DNA from: Ischnura elegans
Lineage: Eukaryota > Arthropoda > Insecta > Odonata > Coenagrionidae
DNA: 64,000 nucleotides
Assembly (NCBI RefSeq): GCF_921293095.1
Contig: NC_060253.1
Coordinates: 83,427,992-83,491,991, forward strand
Direction: 5' to 3'
In this document: piece by piece, positions 33,901 through 60,900 of the stretch
How the letters are laid out: each line of letters begins with the position of its first letter
Numbering within the stretch: the first letter of the stretch is position 1
Position numbers and translations under genes: made by a program
The notes under the pieces: model-generated
Database searches by the model: none
The model's input: only the letters and a program-made list of their open reading frames with translations
Told to the model about the DNA's origin: nothing

Positions 33901-36900
33901 ATATTACATCCCCTGCCATTGTAGAGAAAATGTGTTTGGATGTAAAACTGTATCTTTAGCCTTTTTAGTGTTAATTAATGTGAAAAAATATCCGCAAATG
34001 ACCAAAAACCTGAAGTGGGACTGGACCATACTTCATGTATTCTTACTGTATTACTTACCAGTGGCACAACGAGGGGGGGGGGGGGGTTTTGGGGGGATGA
34101 ACCCCCCCCCCCCCCACAGCTCAGAGAAATTTTTAAGTTTATTCCATTTTTTTAATTGGATATATATTACTAATAGAATACTTTAAGGATGAATAGATCC
34201 CTCAGAAAGCCTTAAAACTCACCATTTTGAACCATTTATCTTTAAAATTACGCAATTGATTAATCTCGCACCTATCGCTTATCCTGTTGGGTATTCTATA
34301 CCCCCACACACCCCGGCATTAGTTGCACCTAAACCCCCCCCAGCCTTAATTCCTAGTTGCGCCCCTGTTACTTAATTCTCTTATTCTTAGTAGAACGTTA
34401 TGTGAATGACTAAGCCTGCGTCTGGTTTAGTTTTTTGACTTTTTAGTGGTTTAGTCTTATATCTTGGTCTTAGTCCAAGATTTAGTAAGCAAGAAACCTT
34501 ACACTTTATGTTGTTCCAATAATTGTGCTTGCATAATTAATTGCTTAATTATAAAGAGCAAATGCTTTTGCGGTGTGAGATTCAGGAAAGTAGAATCAAG
34601 CGTTGGGAGCAGTGAAAACATTCAGGAAAAACAAATCAGTGGACAAGTGATCAGGTTATCCCCTTTTCGATGCTGGATTTTAATATTTTATCCTACCTGT
34701 GATGCGTTCCATTACAATGCAGTCATAACAAGGTGTCAGATATCCAAAAATCTGAGGATATTATCATGGGATTCAAGGATATCCACCCACAATATGAGAT
34801 CACTATCCCAGGAGAAAGAATTTAGTGAGAATCACGCTTTAGTATCGAGAGATCATCTGGGGATAGAGGCATTATGAATGTTCATTTAAACTAGGCTTGT
34901 AAAGATACCAAGGTGAAGGAGGATAGGGTGAGGATCCAGCATCCAGAGTTTTCATTGCTGATTGGCTAATGACCGATTGCAGCAACTCCGGCAGACTTGA
35001 GCGGAACTTTGTGAAACTGATATTCAATATGGCTGCTTGAAATGACGGCTTATATTCTGGGTATCAGGAAATTTTAAATTCTCTGTCCTTGGATATTTTG
35101 TTTTGAAAATGTCAGCCCTGGCCCAGGGGAGGAAGGGGCTGGATTGTATCCTCACCTAGGCCAGGTTAAATAAAATGCAAGTCAAGTCCAAGTATTGATC
35201 GGAAAAGAAAGCTAAAATAGTGTTGGCCATGATGGAAAATTTGAGCTTAATTTAAATCTTTCATCTTATGCAGAAAATGATACTACATAATTAATAATAT
35301 ATTTTTCCAAAGAAATATACTGTATTAAAGACTTTTATAAACCTATATCACAAAATTAAGCTTGAAAAATACTTCAGCTGTGAGCGTAAACATTAAGCAC
35401 GGCATAGATGTTACGTACCGATATCCTTGCTATCCTCAGTTGGTCCCGACTATACTAAACATTCAGTATCTCTTGTGCTGGCTGGGAAGGAATGCGTATC
35501 AGATGTCATAAAAGATATGATACTGCTGTTTAAAGTGTTATTCCCCGTACAATTCATGCATTTCATCAAATATTTGGTCCTTTTTCAGAGTGACCAAAAG
35601 AGATGGTCGAATTCAAGGCTTTGCTGGTTCTCCTGTGGAAATTTCCGGCGATGGAGGATCTGTTCTGTTTGATCTGGGAGCTTCAGTTGGGCCAAGGTAT
35701 GCCTCATCTTTTTCTGACCTTCTATGCAGGAAAATTCCCCTGGGCTCCCCCAAGTGCCCTTGTTACTTTGTGTTACCCATTGTATATTTTTTACGTTGCT
35801 GCCTGGATAATCATTTGATGACAGTTTCCCTTTCCAAACATTTGAGGCACTCGTTCAGCGGTGTAGTAGAGATGAGTCAATTCCAAATGTCAATTATGAA
35901 TCCATTGATTCCAGAAAGATGATTATTTTGAAAATAGACTATAAGCTTTGGGCATAAAGGACACCACACACCTGAGCAATTGTGCACCATATTTCATTTA
36001 ATTAACAAATTATATCTGAAACAGTTAGTTTTAATTATTTTGTCAAAGCTGAGGATGTATTACTGTAATACTAATTTACTATTTTTAATGAAGATACTTT
36101 TTTGTCCACTTAATTGTCATTTTTATTTTATTCCATTCAGTCCTCAAATTTTAATGACAGCAATATTACTGACGAATAAATAATCATAATCATAATTTAT
36201 TCAACATTAAACATAATACAATGTAATAGTCTTCGTCAAAGAAAAACTAAATCTAGAATATACAATTTAGAGTATTGCTCTCCAGAAATTCATTGAGTGA
36301 ATAAAAAGCTTGAGTCACTATCCACGAATGAAGAACACCTTTAAACTTTCTTAAAGTACAATTTCTTGCCTCTTGAGGTAAGTGGTTGAACATGCAAAGT
36401 TTAACATGGTCAAAAGAATTTTTTGTAGTTGACAGCCTACAGTGGGGCTGTAACAGATTATTTTTGAGCCTTCTGTTGTAATGGTGGACATCAGCACCAG
36501 TTTTATGGCTGTCAATATTCACTTTTACATTTATTAAACATTTAAATATATATAGACGGTACAATGTCATAATCCCTTGCTGCCTGAATAGTGGTTTGCA
36601 GTGTTCCCTTACGTTAGAATTGGTAATAATCGTAATGGCTCTTTTCTGTAGAATAAATAACTCTTTAGAGGAGGAAGAATGGTCCCAAACCTCAATGCCA
36701 TAGGAGAGGTGGCAGTGAAAAATGGCAAAGTAAACTGCTCGAAGATGTTCGGCAGGAATGAGTGTTTTCAGTTTTCTAAGGAGGAATATGGCTTTTGATA
36801 ACTTAGCAGTTGTAGAGGATGTATGACAATCCCATATTAGTCTGCAATCAAGGTCAAAGCCCAGTAGCTTTAAATTTCTAGTGTGGTACAGAGTAGGGCT

Positions 36901-39900
36901 TAAGGAGAACACCATTTGTTGGGTTTTATTTGTGTTAAGGGCAAGCCTGTTTGCTGAGAACCACTCTTCGGCCACTGAAAGGATAACATCCGAAGGATAG
37001 GTGGGATCATTTAGATCATGTATGAGAGTAGTGTCGTCAGCATATAAGACTGACGTGCAAGGAAGATGGTGTGGGAGATCATTTATCAAAATTAAAAATA
37101 AAAGAGGACCGAGGACTGATCCTTGTGGTACACCATGTGTTACGTTAATAGGGGCAGACGGTGAATTATTCACTTGAACACATTGCGAGCGGTTTGTTAA
37201 GTAGGACTCCATGAGTTTTAATTCAGTATTATTGATACCATAATATTGTAATTTTCTAAGGAGTAGTGGATGGGAAACACAATCAAAAGCTTTAGAAAGG
37301 TCACAAGCTGTTAAAACAAGAGAGGATCTATTTTCAAAAGCCTCCAGTAAGTTATCGACCACATATTTGATGGCAGAAGATGTAGAACGACCTTGACGAA
37401 AGCCATATTGAGAGGGTGTAAATAGATTATTATCGTGAAAATGATTGTAGAGCTGAATTTTAATGACTTTTTCAATTATCTTACCAAAAACAGGAATGAT
37501 AGAAATTGGGCGGTAATTTGCTGGTGAGGTTCTATCACCTTTTTTATGAATAGGGACTATTTTCGATATCTTGAGTTTTTTTGGGAATGAGCCTGACTGA
37601 AAGCAAGTATTGCAGATTATTGCAAGGGGTTCACTGAGTACATCTGCTAATTGTATGATAAGGTTGGCAGATAATCCATAAATGTCGGTGCAGTTTGATT
37701 TTCTGAAGCTTTTGATAGTTTAAAAAATGTCAGTGGGAGTAACCCACTGCCATTTGAAAGCAGGTGCGGTTACAGGGAGTTCTCTAAGAAGATCAGTGGC
37801 ATCAGCAGATGGGCTCTTTAAAGAGGAGATGATGAGATTGATTGAGTCAATGAAATGCTTGTTCAGGCTTTCAGAACAGAAAGGGAGTTCTGAATTGAGA
37901 TGTATAGAGCCAGTTTCAGAATTAATAACTTTCCAGGCTGCCTTTACTTTATTGTCAGCCTTATTAATTAGAGTACCATTTGCCATAATTTTTGACTGAT
38001 TTATTTAATTTATGTACTCCTTCTTATGAAGAAGCCAGGCCTTCTTGTCCTCAATATTGCGAGAGTGACTATATTTGGAGTGAAGTTGGATTACTACAGA
38101 TCGTAAATGAGATAATTCCTTAGTAAACCACTTATTACTGGGCTTTTTACCTTTAGTTTTGGACATAAGTCTTTTGGGGAAACAGTGTCCAAAGAGCAAT
38201 ATGAAATTCTCAAAAAAACAAGTGAAGTTATCGTTGCCATTTTGATATTGAAGGAGCGAAAACCAGGTGACATTGGACAATAGAGATTTTAAATTTTCAC
38301 CACCAATATGAGAAATATGCCGAGTAAATGTAGGAAGATGGGTCTTACATACGGGTTCAGAAATCTTCGGGCTCTTCTTTCAGTGGTAAATCTGAAGTCC
38401 AAAGCTAGGTGATCTGACAACCCTAAGTCAGTCACGTTGACATTATAAGAAGAGGCAGGTAAGCTTGTAATTATATTGTCAAGGCAAGAGCTGGCTCTTG
38501 TGGGCTCTCTGTTTACACAGTGTAAATTGAAGGACATGAGCAGAGCAATGAGGGAGTTTGTCTCTCTTGTGTCAAATCGAATATCGACATTTAGGTCTCC
38601 ACATACAATTATAACCTTACCAAACTTATAGAGAGTAACTAAAATTTGCTCTAGCTGTTGGCAGAAAATTACAAAATCATCATTTGGGGATCTATATAAA
38701 CACACAACAATCACATGGTATTCTTTCACATATATGGCACTTGCCTCACAATGCACTTCCCTGCATAACCCACTGATGTTGATTACTTTAACAGATAAGT
38801 GCTGGGCAGCATAGATTGATGTACCACCGTGCTTTGCTTTAATTCTGGAGAAGGATATTGCCAGCCTGTAACCCTTGATATTGGAGATATCAAATTCCTC
38901 AGTTTTGAGCCAGTGCTCTGTTATACATAGAAAGTCATATGGGCACTCATTGACTGAAACTTCTAGGGCACTAAGTTTATTGCGTAGGCATTGAATGTTT
39001 AAACATAGGATTGAGGACAGACCACTGTGCACCTTTACACTGTCAATACTGTTATTATGATTAGAATTATCAGACAACTGGTAGGAAATGATAGAGTCCT
39101 TTTGATCTCGAATAACTACTTCTGTTTCATAAGGTGACACCGGCGCAGAACTTAACTTGGTGCCAAGTTTTTTCGAGCTATCCGAAGTAAATCTACCTTT
39201 CAAATAGTCCACAACTTCTTCTGGTTTTGTGTCCTTTGGAAACCTCCACACGTGAAGACTACAATATCCCGGCTGTTAGTGCGAATAGGAATCAAAGGAA
39301 TCAGAATCTGTAATCGATTTGAAAGAATCAGAATTCAAATCGGAATCGACTCATCCCTAGTATGTATGTAACTTGTCTGGTTTCAGGATATCCCTTGATG
39401 AGGAAGGCATCAGTATGACTGGATTGGAGTCACTGGATGTACTCCTGCACGGGGCCTCCAGGGGGAGTTTGCACCATGGAGGGGGTCCCCCTAGGGGCTC
39501 GCCCGCTACTGTCTTCTCAACCCGCTACCCCAACTTTGGGCTCCCGCGAGGCGTGAGGCGCCTGGACGTTGCTTCTGCCACAGCCAAGAGGCTCTCGGCC
39601 CCTGTGGGTGCATCCCTTCGCTTGAAGTCTACCTCCAGGGTGAGCTGCTTGCCTCTCTCCTTCCTTTCCGGTCATTTTGAGGCATTGAGGTCCTCCACAT
39701 GGCCTCATTAACTGAATGTCTCAGCCATTCTGGCTGTTCAGGAGGACTTTATTAATCTTCTGGCCAAATTCACACCCATGAGTGAGCATGCCACAGCAAT
39801 TTCACATTTTAGTACTACATTGCATTGCTCAAATATGACATAGGTCTTTCATAGGTTTTTATGGTGTTGTCCATGATTTTTGCTAGATTCCAGGTTTGTT

Positions 39901-51974: not shown

Positions 51975-54900
51975 ATGGCAGGGTTCCATGTTCCAGTGCA
52001 GGTAATATCATTTTTAATTAAAATGTGAATTATTTTATGATAGTTCAGTAATGTAGGTACCTAGTGCAATGAATAAAATTTCTGCTGTGATTATACTCAT
52101 TATCTTAATTGTATTGGAAAAGAATGCTGAAATGGATTATAACTCCAATTCCGCATGTTTTTGTACATTTTTTGACTGTTAAGTATATGTTGATTTTCAG
52201 TTTTAATGTACCTCATAATTTTCTGTGAATTCCTTTTTCTTTTAAGTTTGAACACAAATGCTACTACCAGCTAGAATCTTATCACCGAGAGAAGTCTAGC
52301 CCACAGCTCGAGTCGTCTTCGGAAGTCCACCACGCCACCAAAAATGCATCTTCACAATGCCATACATCTGTGCCTAGAAACAGCAGAAGCTGGCGGCCAA
52401 AAGTCAACGTCAGTGTTCCATATAATATGCTCAACTGCTTCTGCCATGAATGTCGTAGAAGGAAAATGCTCCCTGTGGAGCAAATTAAAGTGAGTGCCAT
52501 CTCCCTCTGCTAAATGTATGTCTTACAATCAAAGCATAATCGAATAAAACTTTCTCCGGGGTCATCTGATTTAAGACATTCCCGATGCATAATAAAAGAA
52601 TATAAATGGTGCAGGGAAGTCAGTAACATCAGTCAGCTACTCTTAGTATTTTTGGATTCTGCATATGTTGACTTGGGGTTCATCTCGAGCTATCTGAGTT
52701 TAGCTTAACATGTAGTATATGCTCGACTTCAGTTGCTGTTGAATGCCATTTTAATAATTGAAATAGGAGGTTTTGTGGTTTCCACGATTTGGTTTTCAAT
52801 AGTCCCTGAATTTTCTCCACGAAAACAAATATCATTTTTTAGAATAGGGTAGTTTCCTTCATCAAAGAAAACGAAAGGCATTGATTGCTATTCGCCCCAA
52901 GGTCACCTCACTTGCGGCAGTGGGAACCAGAACAACGTCACACGGGCTTTTCCCAGCATTCATACTTAGCCGTCGCGTTTTCGCGCGCTTGAAAATTTTC
53001 ACTTTTCATTTAACCGCGAAAAATTAATATCGTCATTTAAAAATCTAAAAGCGTGAAATATGTACTCCAGGAGTAATAATCTTTCGATTCAGGCAATAAA
53101 TAAATAATAGGAAACCACCCTATTTTGGAGAGAAATAAGATTGGAAAAACTCATTGTTTTATTTGAAAAAATGAGGGAGTTACGATTTTTGGCCACCTTT
53201 CTTTGGTTTTTGCCTACTGCATGACCTATCCTTAGCCGTATCTATTGGTGAATATAGATCTTGTCTAGCATTGTAAAACCACCCCTTCATGTGACCTACT
53301 CTTCATTCCCCCTGCAGAAACCTTATGAGAGGCCTATGTTTCATGAAGAGGATGCATGCTTCCCTGTAGCATGCTTGGGAAGACTGGAAAATAGACAGAA
53401 GTTGGAGCAAGCAATTTATAGGGTGACACCGGATCCTCGATTGATAAACTCTCCGCAGATAGTCAGAGATTTCAAGGAGGATAAATGTGAGTTCACACAT
53501 TTACATTTTAGAGGTTTAGATATCTATTGTGGTGAATGAGAAGTTAAAATGAGCATAGCACGAAAAGTATTTTGTTGGTTTTTTAAAATAATAATATCTA
53601 ATGACAGCCAATAAGTAGGCCTTAAAATTTGATTTTTTTACAATTGTAATACACAATAAAATAATATTAATCTCATGTGACTTAGAAGTCATTCAATGGA
53701 AACAAATTATACATGAAAGAAATAGCTAAAACTAGGGATGGGTCGACTGTACCCTGATATCTTTCACCATTATCTCTCCTGTTCCCCTTCAAATGCATAA
53801 ATACTTCATTTTCATCCCACCTTTGCTTTCTTGAAATATGTAATGCCATGGCAAATAAAATCAACTGATTTGGGCGTTACTTGGTGGAATGATGAAATTT
53901 TCATGGTGAAACAAAAACCAAGTACTGTTCCACAAACTTTTTTTATTTGCTGTCAACTATAGACATCGAAACTATAGTTTCGACATCTATACCATCATTA
54001 TAAAGAGAAACAGAGCAATAGCGTACAACGTCCAACCTTATGTATCCAACAGCGGTATGAGGGAGGGAGGGGGGGGACCCAAAAGGGGAAGAGGGGGTGG
54101 GAACGTTGGATTGAGGGTCAAGACATAAAAGTATAAAAGCTGGGGGTGGGGGGGAGAGAGGCGGATAGAAGGTCAGGTGGTGACGACATTAAAGGGGGGA
54201 GGGGGAGGATTGTCAAGGAAGAAGTCAGATTTTAAAACAGTAGATAAAAAAATGAGAACATTTGAATATAGTCATATCATTTAAAATTTTGGTGTTACAT
54301 GCAAGAGTGCATTTGGTGATTTCTAAAATATCCAATTGTAAAAGTACGTGTAAATGTAAAAGTTTAATATTAAAATCACTGTTGTGGCCAGATTCGATGA
54401 GGTGCTCAGAAAATTGGGATTTGAAGTCTTTCAGACGGGCACTTCTTTTTGTGTTCATCAACACGAGTTTTAAATTTGAAGCCCATTTGACCGACGTAAA
54501 CACCGTTGCACTCATCACATGTTAGGTCATAGACACCACTTATGTCTTCAGGATGCTTTTTGTCCATAGAGTTAAAAATCAGTTTTCCTTGGGAGGTCGG
54601 GGAGTAAAAACACACTCGGTATTTGTCTTTGGGGATGAGGTTGTGAACACTGTAGGAAAGGGGGCCAAGGAAGGGTAATTTAATTTGCACCACCGTTTCA
54701 GCTCTGTTTTGGGGATCAGCAGCAAACTGGTTAGGCTGGGCCACGCTCTTTTGCGGGTTCTTTTGACCAGTAGTTTACCGATGAGGTGATCATTAAGGTA
54801 AATGCACCAATGCCTGACCCATTAAGGTTTTTTCCTTGCATGTATATCCCTACAGGAACAATTTCAATTCATGTTCAATTCATTTTAAAATTAGTAATAG

Positions 54901-57900
54901 GTTTGATACTTCTTCTTTAAGACTGCGTTTTTGTTGAACGTGTAAATTTAAAAAATATATTATTTTTACTTTTTACAAAATGGGCTTGAAATGCTCCTAT
55001 TCCTGACCCTCAAAATTCTCGATGCTCTTAAACCTGACCCCTGATGTTCTTGTAGCTGACCCTTTGGTTATTTTCCTGGAAAGCTAGTACTAAAAAAATG
55101 TAATTCACTTTACACTTAGGTTACAGGTATTAAAAATAATTAACACACATTATCAAATGTAAGGATATATATATTTTGACTCTATAAGCTTCAAAGTTAT
55201 ATATGAGTGATGATATTAAAGTTCTTTATTAGACAGTTTAGCTTTGAATTGCTTCACTTCAGGGACTAAACAAACACCCCTAGAATTTACAGCTGAGGGA
55301 GGGTTTATCTTGCCTAAAACACTATTATTATCATACCAAATCGCATCCTTTTTCTCTGGCCAACGCCAACCTGATGGCCCACTCATAGTCATTACTGAGA
55401 TGAGGCATTCTTGGCCATATTTTGTTTTCCGTTTCTCTAGTATCTGTCCTGGGAAAAGTTCTTCTTCATACTCAGTAATTACATAATCATTAATGTTTAA
55501 TGAATTGTTTGAGTGATTGTTGATGTCACTTGATGTGTCATTTCTGTGATCTGCACTCGCAGGCATATCATGATTTGACGAACTAGCATTAGCACTGATA
55601 GAATCAAAAATCACCTTTGACTTTGAGCTTTGATTTGACTTGCATTTTACACTCTTTTTCTTTTTGTAGCACTTTTTCGTTTGCTTTCACCTGTTTGAGT
55701 TTTTTTCTTTCTTCTTTCAAATTGGCTCTCTTCTCATTTTCTTCTCTCTTCTTTTTATGGTAGTCTTGCCACTGTAGAGATGTCACGACTGATGGGATCT
55801 TTTCAGTTTTTCTTTTTTTCGTCACCTGTACTTTTGGTTCTGGCCAAAAAAGAGCTCTTTTGAAGGGCGAAGGAATACATTCTTTCTCTTTATCAGGAGT
55901 AGAATGTATATTAGTTCCTCCTCCAATAGCAGAACATGTGTCAACATTTTGACCTGGAGTCAGAACTGGGTCATTGTCAAGTACCTGTGTTATCCTGGAG
56001 ACTTGGGTAGTTGTTGACTGTGACGGCTCATTATTATCAGGCTCAGAGACAGCATCTTGAAGGTCAATTAGTTTCACTGGTTCTTCAAAGGGTTGAATTT
56101 CAAGATAGCACTTCCCTGGCTGCAGTTTATCACCCACTTCTTTAACTGATGACCCAATATTTCTTATAGATATATCGGAAAAATACTGTTCTTCAGTCCT
56201 TTCTGTGTGATTTGATTGACTATTAACCTGAAGATTCATTTCCTTCCAAACCTGGAAAAGAGAGGTATCACATAAGGGTCCAGTCCATTGTTTTCCTTCT
56301 GGGACAGACTTGAATAGTTCCAGTGTAGGTTTCTCAATGAATCTCTCTAAAAACAGCAAATGTTCTTCATTTTTTTTCTGAAGACTGTGATTATCAGGAT
56401 TTGTATATGCCTTAGGTGGAGAAATGTTCTTCTCAGTGATGCTGTCAGCAAAGGTTGAATCCCAAGGGTATAGTCCACATTTACGGAAGCCACTTCGTAA
56501 AACATTGGGCAGTACTTTCTCCATTATTGCTTTGTTCAAAAGAGGAGCGAAATTTTGTCTTTTCAATACCTGGGATTGATTTTCCAATCTCCACGACAAA
56601 ACATGCTCCTTCCAACCAGCTTTGAGTGTCCTAAAAACTGCCACATCCATTGGTTGTAATAAATGAGTGGAATTTGCTAGAAGTGCCACCAAAATTATGC
56701 CTACACTCTTGCAAAATTCACTCAGATGATAGGACAAGTGGGAGCTGTGCCCATCAACAAATATAATTATCGGGAACTCCACATTGTCTTTGGCCCATGG
56801 GTAGAACACATTTGCGATGTAACTGTAAAAAGTGTCACTAGTCATCCATCCACTGTCAGAGCAACCAACACCCCAGTCCTTTGGAATACTGCTGGAAATT
56901 TCTGCAGGGATTCGTTTATATTGGTATAGCACCATTGGAGGTGCAAGAAATCCAGCTGCATTTCCAGCTAATAAAACCGTTAGGCATTCTTTTTCATCAT
57001 TATTTACAATGTTATATATGGTCTTGTCACCTCTTTTTGCCAGAACTTTAGCACCTTTAGGATTCAAAAAAAAGGCAGATTCATCCATATTAAAAATTCT
57101 GTCCGGATGTTTCAGTATGTCTTCATTGCCTGATTTTTCCAGGTAATCACTAACCTCCCCGAACCAACTTTTAACTTTCACCGCTGTAACATCACTTCGG
57201 CTCCTTGTAAGATTTTGTGAAACACGAAGGCTAATATTTGGGTGGCGTTTTAAAAACCCCTCATACCACTTACGACCAGGGTGTTCATTTTTAAATTCCT
57301 TTCTCAATTCACGAGCAAGTCTGGCCACACTGGCTAAAAAATTTTCTTTTGAAACTGGGAATCCAGCTTTGGCCATGTCAAGGACCCACGTAACCAGCAC
57401 CTTCTCCTCTTCTTTTGAAAGTAAAGTATTTGGCCCCATCCTCCTTTTTTCTGGGTAAACACCCTTTACTTTGTAGAGCAAGGTTGTTTTAGGCACTTTG
57501 AATTGCCTTGCTGCTGTCTTGATACCCATTCCTCCTTTCACTGCCAAGATTGCTGCTACCATGTCATCCTCAGGATATTTTAATATTTTGGATTTAGGAG
57601 TAGCCATTTCTCTACCAAATAAGGTTGAAAAGGTGTCAAGACTTTATATTTAACCTTACTTAAAATTAAACCTATTAATACTGGTCAATTATTTATTACA
57701 AAGCTAAACTCAACTCAAGGGTCAGGTAAAGGTGCAGCAAAATACCACCATGTCCCAATGGTTGACCCGGGGGGTCAGCCATTAGTTCTCATTGAGTAAT
57801 CAATTTCATATTAATTTTGAAGGATTAATTGCCTTTTTAGGCTTCATTGCACACAAAAACAGAAAAATATGGATTGCACCTATGCCTGACATTGGGGTCA

Positions 57901-60900
57901 GCTACTAGTGCATGCAGTTTAGTTTTGGTACATAAAGCTGACACCCCCTAAGTAAGAGGTAAATTAGCTCTTTGAAGTTAAAAAGTGATCTAACTCCATT
58001 ACAAAAACTCCCAATAATCTATTGAAACAATAAACTTGCAAATAGTACCCAAATAATCTCAGTAAAATTCTTATAAAGACTAGCTTACCTCTTATCAGAA
58101 TTCTTTACAAACGGCCTCAAATTTCATAGAAGTTGTAGTCACCACTGAAAATGAGCAACTGCCAAGGAACTATTGACTCTGCTGCCAAATCAACTGTGTT
58201 TGCAACAAAGTAACATCTTGATGATTAGTTATGTGGATGAAGGTTACAATGTAAGTGCCCTAGGTTCTTCTTATTACTAAGTAAGGAAATGGGGGTCAGC
58301 TACTGGTTCAGGGTCAGGCATTGGTACATTTACCTTATAGCTGTTATGTAAGATTTCACTTTTTCCCGGCGTATGATGGCGGTGAATTCTTCTCGGGTTT
58401 CCATCCGGGTGAGCTCCATCTCCATCGCTGCCGACGTTTCGATAGAATCCTTTTCTATCGTCATCAGGGCCGATGATGCCAGTAGGAAAGTGCCAGGTTT
58501 ATATATCCTCGGTCGTTATGTTGGGTCGTTCTGATTGGCGGAGAAAGAGTGCGCTTTTCCCGCCACTTTCAAAATCGGGTTCCATGCCTTACTTAAGTTG
58601 AAACCCTCGTCTCTGTTGAAGTTTTTCTTGGAGAGTCGTATTTCAATTGCCTCCTTGGTGAGACGATCCCAGTAGCCGCTGGAGTAGCAGAGCATTTTGG
58701 TGTTTTCCCAGCGAATCGCGTGGTCGAGATTGATGGCGTGCTCCGCAACCGCCGATTTCGATGGTTGGCACAGCCGGAGATGACGCTTATGCTCTTTGAT
58801 TCGGGTCTCGATCGTTCTTCCCGTTTCACCGATATACTCCTCACCACACTCGCATGGTATGCTGTAGACACCAGGCATTTTCAGTCCTGCAGGGTCTTTG
58901 GCACGGACTAAGACTTGTCTTAGTTTTTTGTGAGGCAGATGCACTGTCCGTATACCCGTATACGACCGAGGATATATAAACCTGGCACTTTCCTACTGGC
59001 ATCATCGGCCCTGATGACGATAGAAAAGGATTCTATCGAAACGTCGGCAGCGATGGAGATGAAGCTCACCCGGATGGAAACCCGAGAAGAATTCACCGCC
59101 ATTATAGCTGTTATTTTAACATACTGATTTAATTACATCAAGTTCCTGGTTGAAACTTGAATCAATCATGGGGATACAAAGTAGTCTGTTTAACATAGAG
59201 TTAATGCCCACAATCTTGTGGGAGTATAAAGGATGGTTTGAGTCTGCGGGGATAAGTACATACATCCATAAAGGTAATTATCTGGTAGATTGCGAAGTCA
59301 TGTTTGCCTTCTTTGAGTGAAATCGTAAGATCTAGGAAGTGGATTGAGTCACCTCCAAGTTTACTTCTCAATATCCTCATGGAATATATAGATGAAAATA
59401 GCGAAAAGCAGTTGTTCACATTTTTGACCGTGTTCCACCATTTTCAAAAAACTGGAAAATACTCACAGTGAAGTTTTCTCGGGTTTCACACCGGGTCAGG
59501 TCCTCCATTTCTCCTTCCAACGTTTCGATGAACAGCTCGCCCATCGTCTTCAGGGATTCAGGAATCCAATACCAATTCCTCAAAATCTCGGGGTATATAT
59601 ACATAATTCTGAGGTTGAGGGCGGTTCAGCGTCTCCTGATTGGCTGCCAGTCCCCTCGTATTTTTAGGAGGTGGTCCCATATGTGGCTTAAATTATAGCC
59701 GCAGTCTCTGTTGATGTTATTTCTGTTTTTCCGAATCTGAATAGATTCTTTTACTACGTGGTCCCAGTACCCATTAGATCGACAGAGCAGCTTCGCTTCT
59801 TCCCAGTGAATCATATGATTCTCCAGGATGCTGTGCTCAGCCACTGCCGATTTTTCCAGCTGTCCTAATCTTAGGTGTCTGCGATGCTCTTTCAATCTCA
59901 TCTCAATAGTGCGGCCCGTCTCTCCAATGTAGGTTTTTCCGCATTCACATGGTGTGGCGTACACTCCAGCAATTTTTAACCCAGTTGGGTCTTTTGCCTT
60001 CACAAGTTGATCTCGTAATTTTGGTGAAGGCAAGTGAATGGTGTGGATATCAAACCTCTTCAGAATTCTAGAGATTTTCCCTGATATGGTGGAAATATAT
60101 GGGAGGTATGCCTTGGTCGTCGCAGTGGACTCTTCCTTTGGTGAAGTCTTGTTAGGGGTAAAGGCCCTTTTTAGGGCCAAGTCTATATGACGTCTGCTGA
60201 AGCCGTTCTGAGTGAAGGTTTTCTTCAGGTGTCCTATTTCTTTGCGGAGGTTATCCTTGTCAGGGATAGAGATGGCCCTGTGTATGAGAGTTGAGAGCAC
60301 TGACATCTTCTGGGAGGGATGATGGTGGCTTTTCTCGTTCAGGTAGAGGTCGGTGTGGGTTCTTTTTCTCTAAACACTATGTCCCAGGGTTCCGTCCCGT
60401 TTCCGGTGAATTAATATGTCCAGAAATGGAAGTTTTCCGTCTAATATTTCCGTGGAAAATACTAGGATTATACTTTGATATAGGGGTAATAATATACCGT
60501 TGAGGACCTCAAATACGGAATCCTGAAACCTGGAAAACCAGAATCTGGAACGGCTCACGGCTTACTTTGCTACATAAGTATCTATGTACAGGTGTCATAG
60601 GTGACCACATGTACACGCTTCACTATGGAAAAATACGAGTGATGAAACAAGTCATCAGTTTCACTCTCCTTTGATTATATGACTTAGAGAAATGGAGAAT
60701 TCGCCTGTCCTACTTTAAATCAAAGACGAGTTATTAAAAATGGGAAATATCTTTGGGAAGGCCCTCAAGACCAGAAATCCAGAAAAACCAGTAATCCAGA
60801 AACCCTTTGGTCCCAAGCTTTCCGGTTTTGAGGTCCTCAACTGTATATTTTTTGGCGTGCCTATTGTTTCCTTAAGTTTTTAATATAATTTTTAAAATTA

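Follow-up and report, generated by a model that had tools for sequence, protein, structure and literature searches.

A recently inserted, frame-broken and probably inactive pogo transposon nested in retroelement repeats of Ischnura elegans

Introduction

A DNA transposon with matching ends and a long open frame invites the question of whether it can still move, or whether it only looks as if it could. Here we address this question for a pogo-superfamily element at positions 54796..58335 (minus strand) of a 64,000-nucleotide stretch of the Ischnura elegans genome (contig NC_060253.1, positions 83,427,992 to 83,491,991 of the forward strand), which we call the window. An original prediction, made from the letters alone, had read this element as an apparently full-length and possibly recently active pogo/Tigger transposon, younger than the Penelope-like element (PLE) in which it lies, and had taken its intactness as a sign of recent mobility. 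By comparing the window copy with its relatives, we find it very probable that this is a recently inserted pogo transposon, placed at a TA within a nested target duplication, whose frame is broken in this copy and which is most likely non-autonomous and probably inactive.

Results

The transposase frame and its break

The transposase gene of the window copy is assembled as a frame of 667 codons (55604..57607, minus strand) that encodes HTH_psq at residues 13-54 (E 3.5e-7), HTH_Tnp_Tc5 at residues 65-128 (E 9e-7) and DDE_1 at residues 207-357 (E 4.1e-19), all above the Pfam cut-offs, with aspartates at positions 175, 285 and 321 that give a DD35D spacing. The open frame, the two N-terminal DNA-binding regions and the three catalytic aspartates of the original prediction are therefore all borne out, by the frame list, the Pfam matches and the residues themselves. 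An N-terminal helix-turn-helix with a CENP-B-like (HTH_Tnp_Tc5) DNA-binding region, and a DDE_1 catalytic domain with DDxD, are also what characterizes transposases of the pogo superfamily.

The alignment of copies places a one-base insertion, an additional A within a short A-run, at approximately 55650..55670 (minus strand), near codon 649. This base is private to the window copy, being missing in all four of the aligned copies spanning this position (L021, L022, L023 and L024; in L025 and L026 it falls outside the aligned stretch). In the copy on contig C7 (L021), the main frame and a C-terminal part, which in the window copy lies out of frame at 55219..55614 (minus strand), are joined as one frame at the break site. 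The same part resembles the end of the transposase of a sister family, L007, where it is in frame (40 of 120 residues identical, 33%; E 4e-14). Since the C-terminal part is in frame in L021 and homologous in L007, the family frame extends to around codon 796, of which the window copy thus lacks nearly the last fifth. Neither this domain (55219-55614) nor the end of the L007 frame has a Pfam match at E up to 1, and a second sister transposase, L012, has no match to it. A single-sequence structure prediction of the C-terminal part suggested five strands at a mean pLDDT (predicted local distance difference test) of 43, too weak for a fold search. Programmed frameshifting was considered and set aside because the extra base is missing from the other copies, older ones included.

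Ends and target site

The element spans 3.54 kb between TA dinucleotides at 54794-54795 and 58336-58337. Comparison of the inverted ends delimits terminal inverted repeats (TIRs) of 25 bp, at 54796..54820 (plus strand) on the 3' side of the transposase gene and at 58311..58335 (minus strand) on its 5' side, with one mismatch between the arms, which reach 27 nt when the TA is counted. TIRs and a TA target duplication are again features of the pogo superfamily, and the matching inverted ends with TA duplications that had been claimed for this element are plainly seen. A 25-nt end pattern, searched with up to three mismatches on both strands of the window, matched solely the two element ends and had no match in 100 shuffles.

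Inside the ends, a motif of about 19 nt from the inner TIR is repeated, with three subterminal copies at 54991..55062 (plus strand; starts 54991, 55022 and 55044) and six more, in both orientations, at 57719..58311 (starts 57719, 57750, 57772, 57874, 57895 and 58293). Allowing up to four mismatches, we counted nine subterminal matches and two within the TIRs, 11 for the whole element, and none elsewhere in the window, using a consensus written from the same copies that were then counted; at five mismatches, eight places in the window outside the element also match. These motifs are likely to be binding sites for the transposase. Rfam searches at gathering scores returned no match in the window.

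The insertion site

The element interrupts a dispersed repeat, here repeat A, whose left part occupies 54200..54795 (minus strand). A search with the right flank, in which the best 40 of 2,388 candidates were scored, gave at least 41 matches, counting the window. This is the PLE of the original prediction; it is indeed a dispersed repeat, but its Penelope-like nature was judged by eye only, and the frames at 54406-54744 and 59626-60306 of repeat A have no Pfam match. In the 14 paralogous copies of repeat A that we fetched, the left and right flanks meet directly in every case by blastn, and the letters of the junction were inspected in five (L051, L052, L054, L056 and L058), so that the empty form of the site is found in paralogous repeat copies.

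A second retroelement piece, repeat B (58348..59100, minus strand), is nested in repeat A and carries a GIY-YIG frame at 58516-58944 (Pfam E 7.8e-6) and inverted arms of 145 bp that are 98.6% alike. Its letters show a target duplication of 14 bp, ATTATAGCTGTTAT, the right copy of which lies at 59101..59114 (plus strand), while the left copy is split by the transposon at a TA into 54792-54795 and 58338-58347. Since this duplication of repeat B is interrupted by the transposon, repeat A was there first, repeat B arrived second and the transposon came last, as the youngest layer at the site. That the element is younger than the surrounding retroelement is therefore correct, and it is younger also than the piece nested in it.

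Elsewhere in the window, at 36253-39251 (minus strand), remnants of a non-LTR (long terminal repeat) retroelement include an RVT_1 frame (36253-37362) and an endonuclease frame (38289-39251).

Copies of the family and recent movement

Close copies exist at other places in the genome, as a genome-wide search for near-identical copies showed, so the element is not the single diverged copy that would have spoken against recent mobility. The full-length copy on C7 is 98.56% identical to the window copy over 3,550 aligned bases, with 44 mismatches and just three insertions or deletions (indels) over 3.55 kb, and an interrupted copy on C14 is 98.1-98.4% identical, with 97.3% at its left end. Substitutions private to the window, C7 and C14 copies number 18, 15 and 27 over 2,837 shared columns, a star-like pattern as after a short burst. 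At assumed neutral rates of 2-5e-9 per site per year, the private substitutions would correspond to about 1 to 5 million years. Older copies, compared by blastn, are about 92% (L023 and L025), 89-93% (L026) and 84-87% (L024) identical; L026 is misplaced in the coding part of the copy alignment (76% there against 89-93% by blastn), and its rows were therefore not used. Together with the TA on both sides and the uninterrupted paralogous sites, the close copies at other sites uphold the proposed recent mobility.

None of the young copies is whole. In the C7 copy a different one-base insertion, likewise an extra A, lies near codon 410, and the C14 copy has deletions of two bases and one base as well as insertions of 946 bases and about 9 kb; a 703-base end gap in the aligned row of L022 is the stretch beyond the ~9-kb insertion. 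The claim of full length thus stands for the element, which has both ends, and fails for its reading frame. Intactness cannot be maintained either, given that the break is private to the window copy and that the three young copies are each broken at different places, and with it falls the use of intactness as an argument for recency. Genome searches found no intact copy of the family among the best candidates scored. With the 667-residue protein, for which the best 66 of 1,557 candidates were scored, there were at least 69 matches, mostly members of other families with 31-51% identity; searches with the right and the left end gave 22 and 47 matches, respectively.

In the main frame, the three young copies have 13 synonymous and 23 non-synonymous private changes (6 and 6 in the window copy, 1 and 6 in C7, 6 and 11 in C14), where the neutral expectation is about 1 to 2.6. 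Among the six private amino-acid changes of the window copy, A313S sits eight residues before the third catalytic aspartate. Differences between the window and C7 copies fall on codon positions 1, 2 and 3 in 4, 5 and 10 cases in the main frame and in 2, 1 and 4 cases in the C-terminal part, a third-position lean that hints weakly at selection on the lineage prior to the insertion of these copies.

Allowing up to three mismatches, a 24-nt end pattern matched 38 places in 1.72 Gb, 13 of them exact apart from the free position, against one match for a reversed control pattern. By eye, four facing pairs fall within tolerance, on C5, C7, C8 and C14, and the remaining ends are single. Seven of the single ends, on C14, C16 and C17, are identical at three mismatches and belong to an 81% set of pieces, and six identical ones come from a set that is less closely related (67-69% across some 260 bases). 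We considered an expansion of miniature inverted-repeat transposable elements and rejected it, given only four facing pairs among the 38 TIR-like ends and the lack of any large group of short paired copies. Eight pieces on C11, C14, C16 and C17 match the left end of the element at 80-81% identity; one example, L048, has no transposase match by tblastn, and these pieces are perhaps carried by a larger duplicated repeat.

Beyond this genome, no stretch of viral contigs fits any of six peptide patterns, and 21 stretches of GTDB genome contigs fit one but include no relative by tblastn; records of the host genome itself were possibly excluded from both. Solved structures gave no match at E up to 1.

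Two sister families of the element

Two sister families share DDE_1 with the window transposase, to which L007-like proteins are 48% and L012-like proteins 38-40% identical over the matched part in the protein search (39-48% overall in brief). HTH_Tnp_Tc5 is present in L012 and, below the cut-off, in L007, and HTH_psq is present in L012; the C-terminal domain is common to L007 and the window family.

The L012-like family comprises nine fetched copies (L012-L020, on contigs C12, C19, C11, C4, C2, C6, C9 and C7) of 3.3 kb, with inverted arms of 19 nt including the TA and an open frame of 754-755 codons in five of the nine. L012 is 98.9-99.2% identical to the other eight; L013 and L014 hardly differ and may represent a single copy that was duplicated. 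Further places at 38-40% identity with the same span include some with stops. The four fetched L007-like copies (L007, L008, L009 and L011) are 98.9-99.6% identical in long pairwise matches, and two of them have frames of about 700 codons, the other two shorter ones. L007 has inverted arms of 27 nt, TA included, with no mismatch, and the family apparently has an intron after an HTH_psq-like exon, as judged by eye. Judging by their sequences, both sister families look more likely than the window family to be active now.

Genome-wide, DDE_1 gave 3,004 first-look candidates. The best 150 of these were scored and all passed the cut-off; 17, counted by eye, have a stop inside the match, and the window copy is not among these 150. 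No DDE_1 match was found in any of 14 named control genomes.

Discussion

Our comparison of copies suggests the following history. The element would have landed fairly recently at a TA within the 14-bp duplication that flanks the nested repeat B. The transposase that mobilised it would have been about 796 residues long and presumably bound the ends through its HTH_psq/HTH_Tnp_Tc5 region and cut with a DD35D catalytic centre, as its residues suggest. The one-base break now puts a conserved C-terminal domain out of frame, and the probable loss of function would most likely make the window copy non-autonomous, and probably inactive, in a low-copy family with no intact member found among the best candidates scored. 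Several points weigh against this reading. The 667-codon protein retains both DNA-binding regions and all three aspartates, and the lack of a C-terminal match in L012 means that not all relatives need that domain. The extra A, lying in a short A-run, could be an assembly error. Only the best candidates were scored in the genome searches, and an intact copy may therefore have been missed. Finally, among the four two-ended copies, only those in the window and on C7 are flanked by TA at either end, and the left TA is altered in those on C14 and C5. It is unlikely, if worth bearing in mind, that the window copy is instead the last mobile source of the family, either because its frame is truly continuous or because the 667-residue form still moves the element without the C-terminal domain.

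The first of these routes would make the copy intact and autonomous and the break a sequencing or assembly error in the A-run. The window and C7 copies each differ from the others by one extra A, the frame is otherwise free of stops and the ends have a single mismatch, all of which would fit such an error; nevertheless, the window and C7 copies differ by very few indels beside their mismatches, and nine L012-like copies show seven internal indels, just one of which lies, by eye, in a run of at least four equal bases, so that there is no general excess of homopolymer errors. We regard this explanation as quite unlikely. It is also doubtful, and we would put little weight on it, that the shorter form works as a transposase, or as a regulator in competition for the ends. 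Its DNA-binding and catalytic regions are whole, the L012 transposase has no match to the C-terminal domain, and lengths of 300 to 977 residues are published for pogo transposases (PMC7386202). However, the frame shift is confined to a single copy, L021 and the sister L007 both have the C-terminal domain in frame, and the window copy carries its six private amino-acid changes, including A313S near the third catalytic aspartate. A domesticated host gene, to which one long open frame, a low copy number and the mild third-position excess between the window and C7 copies might point, is highly improbable in view of the matching ends, the TA on both sides, the uninterrupted paralogous sites, the near-identical copies elsewhere and a ratio of synonymous to non-synonymous private changes near that of no selection. 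A recently inserted and probably inactive copy therefore remains our preferred explanation.

By itself this element is of little importance, because pogo elements are widespread (PMC7386202) and the genome is rich in DDE_1; it is a minor, broken member of a crowded field, from an ordinary low-copy family of a known kind. Its value lies in being a clean example of an element that looks intact in one copy and proves broken once copies are compared, and in pointing to sister families whose open copies are about 99% alike.

Placement among the pogo groups was made by setting the domain architecture against published descriptions. The label Tigger is not supported by the scheme of PMC7386202, in which Tigger transposases have HTH_Tnp_Tc5 either together with CENP-B_N or by itself; in the window transposase HTH_psq comes first, the spacing is DD35D and CENP-B_N has no match at E up to 1. 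What it shares with Tigger is a pogo-type transposase, the TA, a short TIR and a spacing that falls within the DD29-36D of that group without being specific to it, and Tigger is itself described as polyphyletic (PMC7325037). Passer elements, with BrkDBD and HTH_Tnp_Tc5 or HTH_Tnp_Tc5 alone (PMC7386202) and transposases of 400-500 residues (PMC9976928), resemble it in DD35D, a TIR under 30 bp and the TA; the window family differs in having HTH_psq and a frame of about 796 codons, and BrkDBD gave no match at E up to 1. Fot/Fot-like elements are described with HTH_psq and/or HTH_Tnp_Tc5 and DD35D (PMC7386202), and the window element has the TA, HTH_psq, HTH_Tnp_Tc5, DDE_1 and DD35D. Most members of that group have TIRs of 40-60 bp, where ours are 25 bp, and they are listed from fungi, algae and protists (PMC7386202), whereas the host here is an animal; six oyster sequences fall in the Fot1 subfamily (PMC7325037), and DD35D is given for pogo groups 33-40 in the same source. 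By this comparison of architecture, we file the element under the pogo superfamily of the IS630-Tc1-mariner group and choose no family within it.

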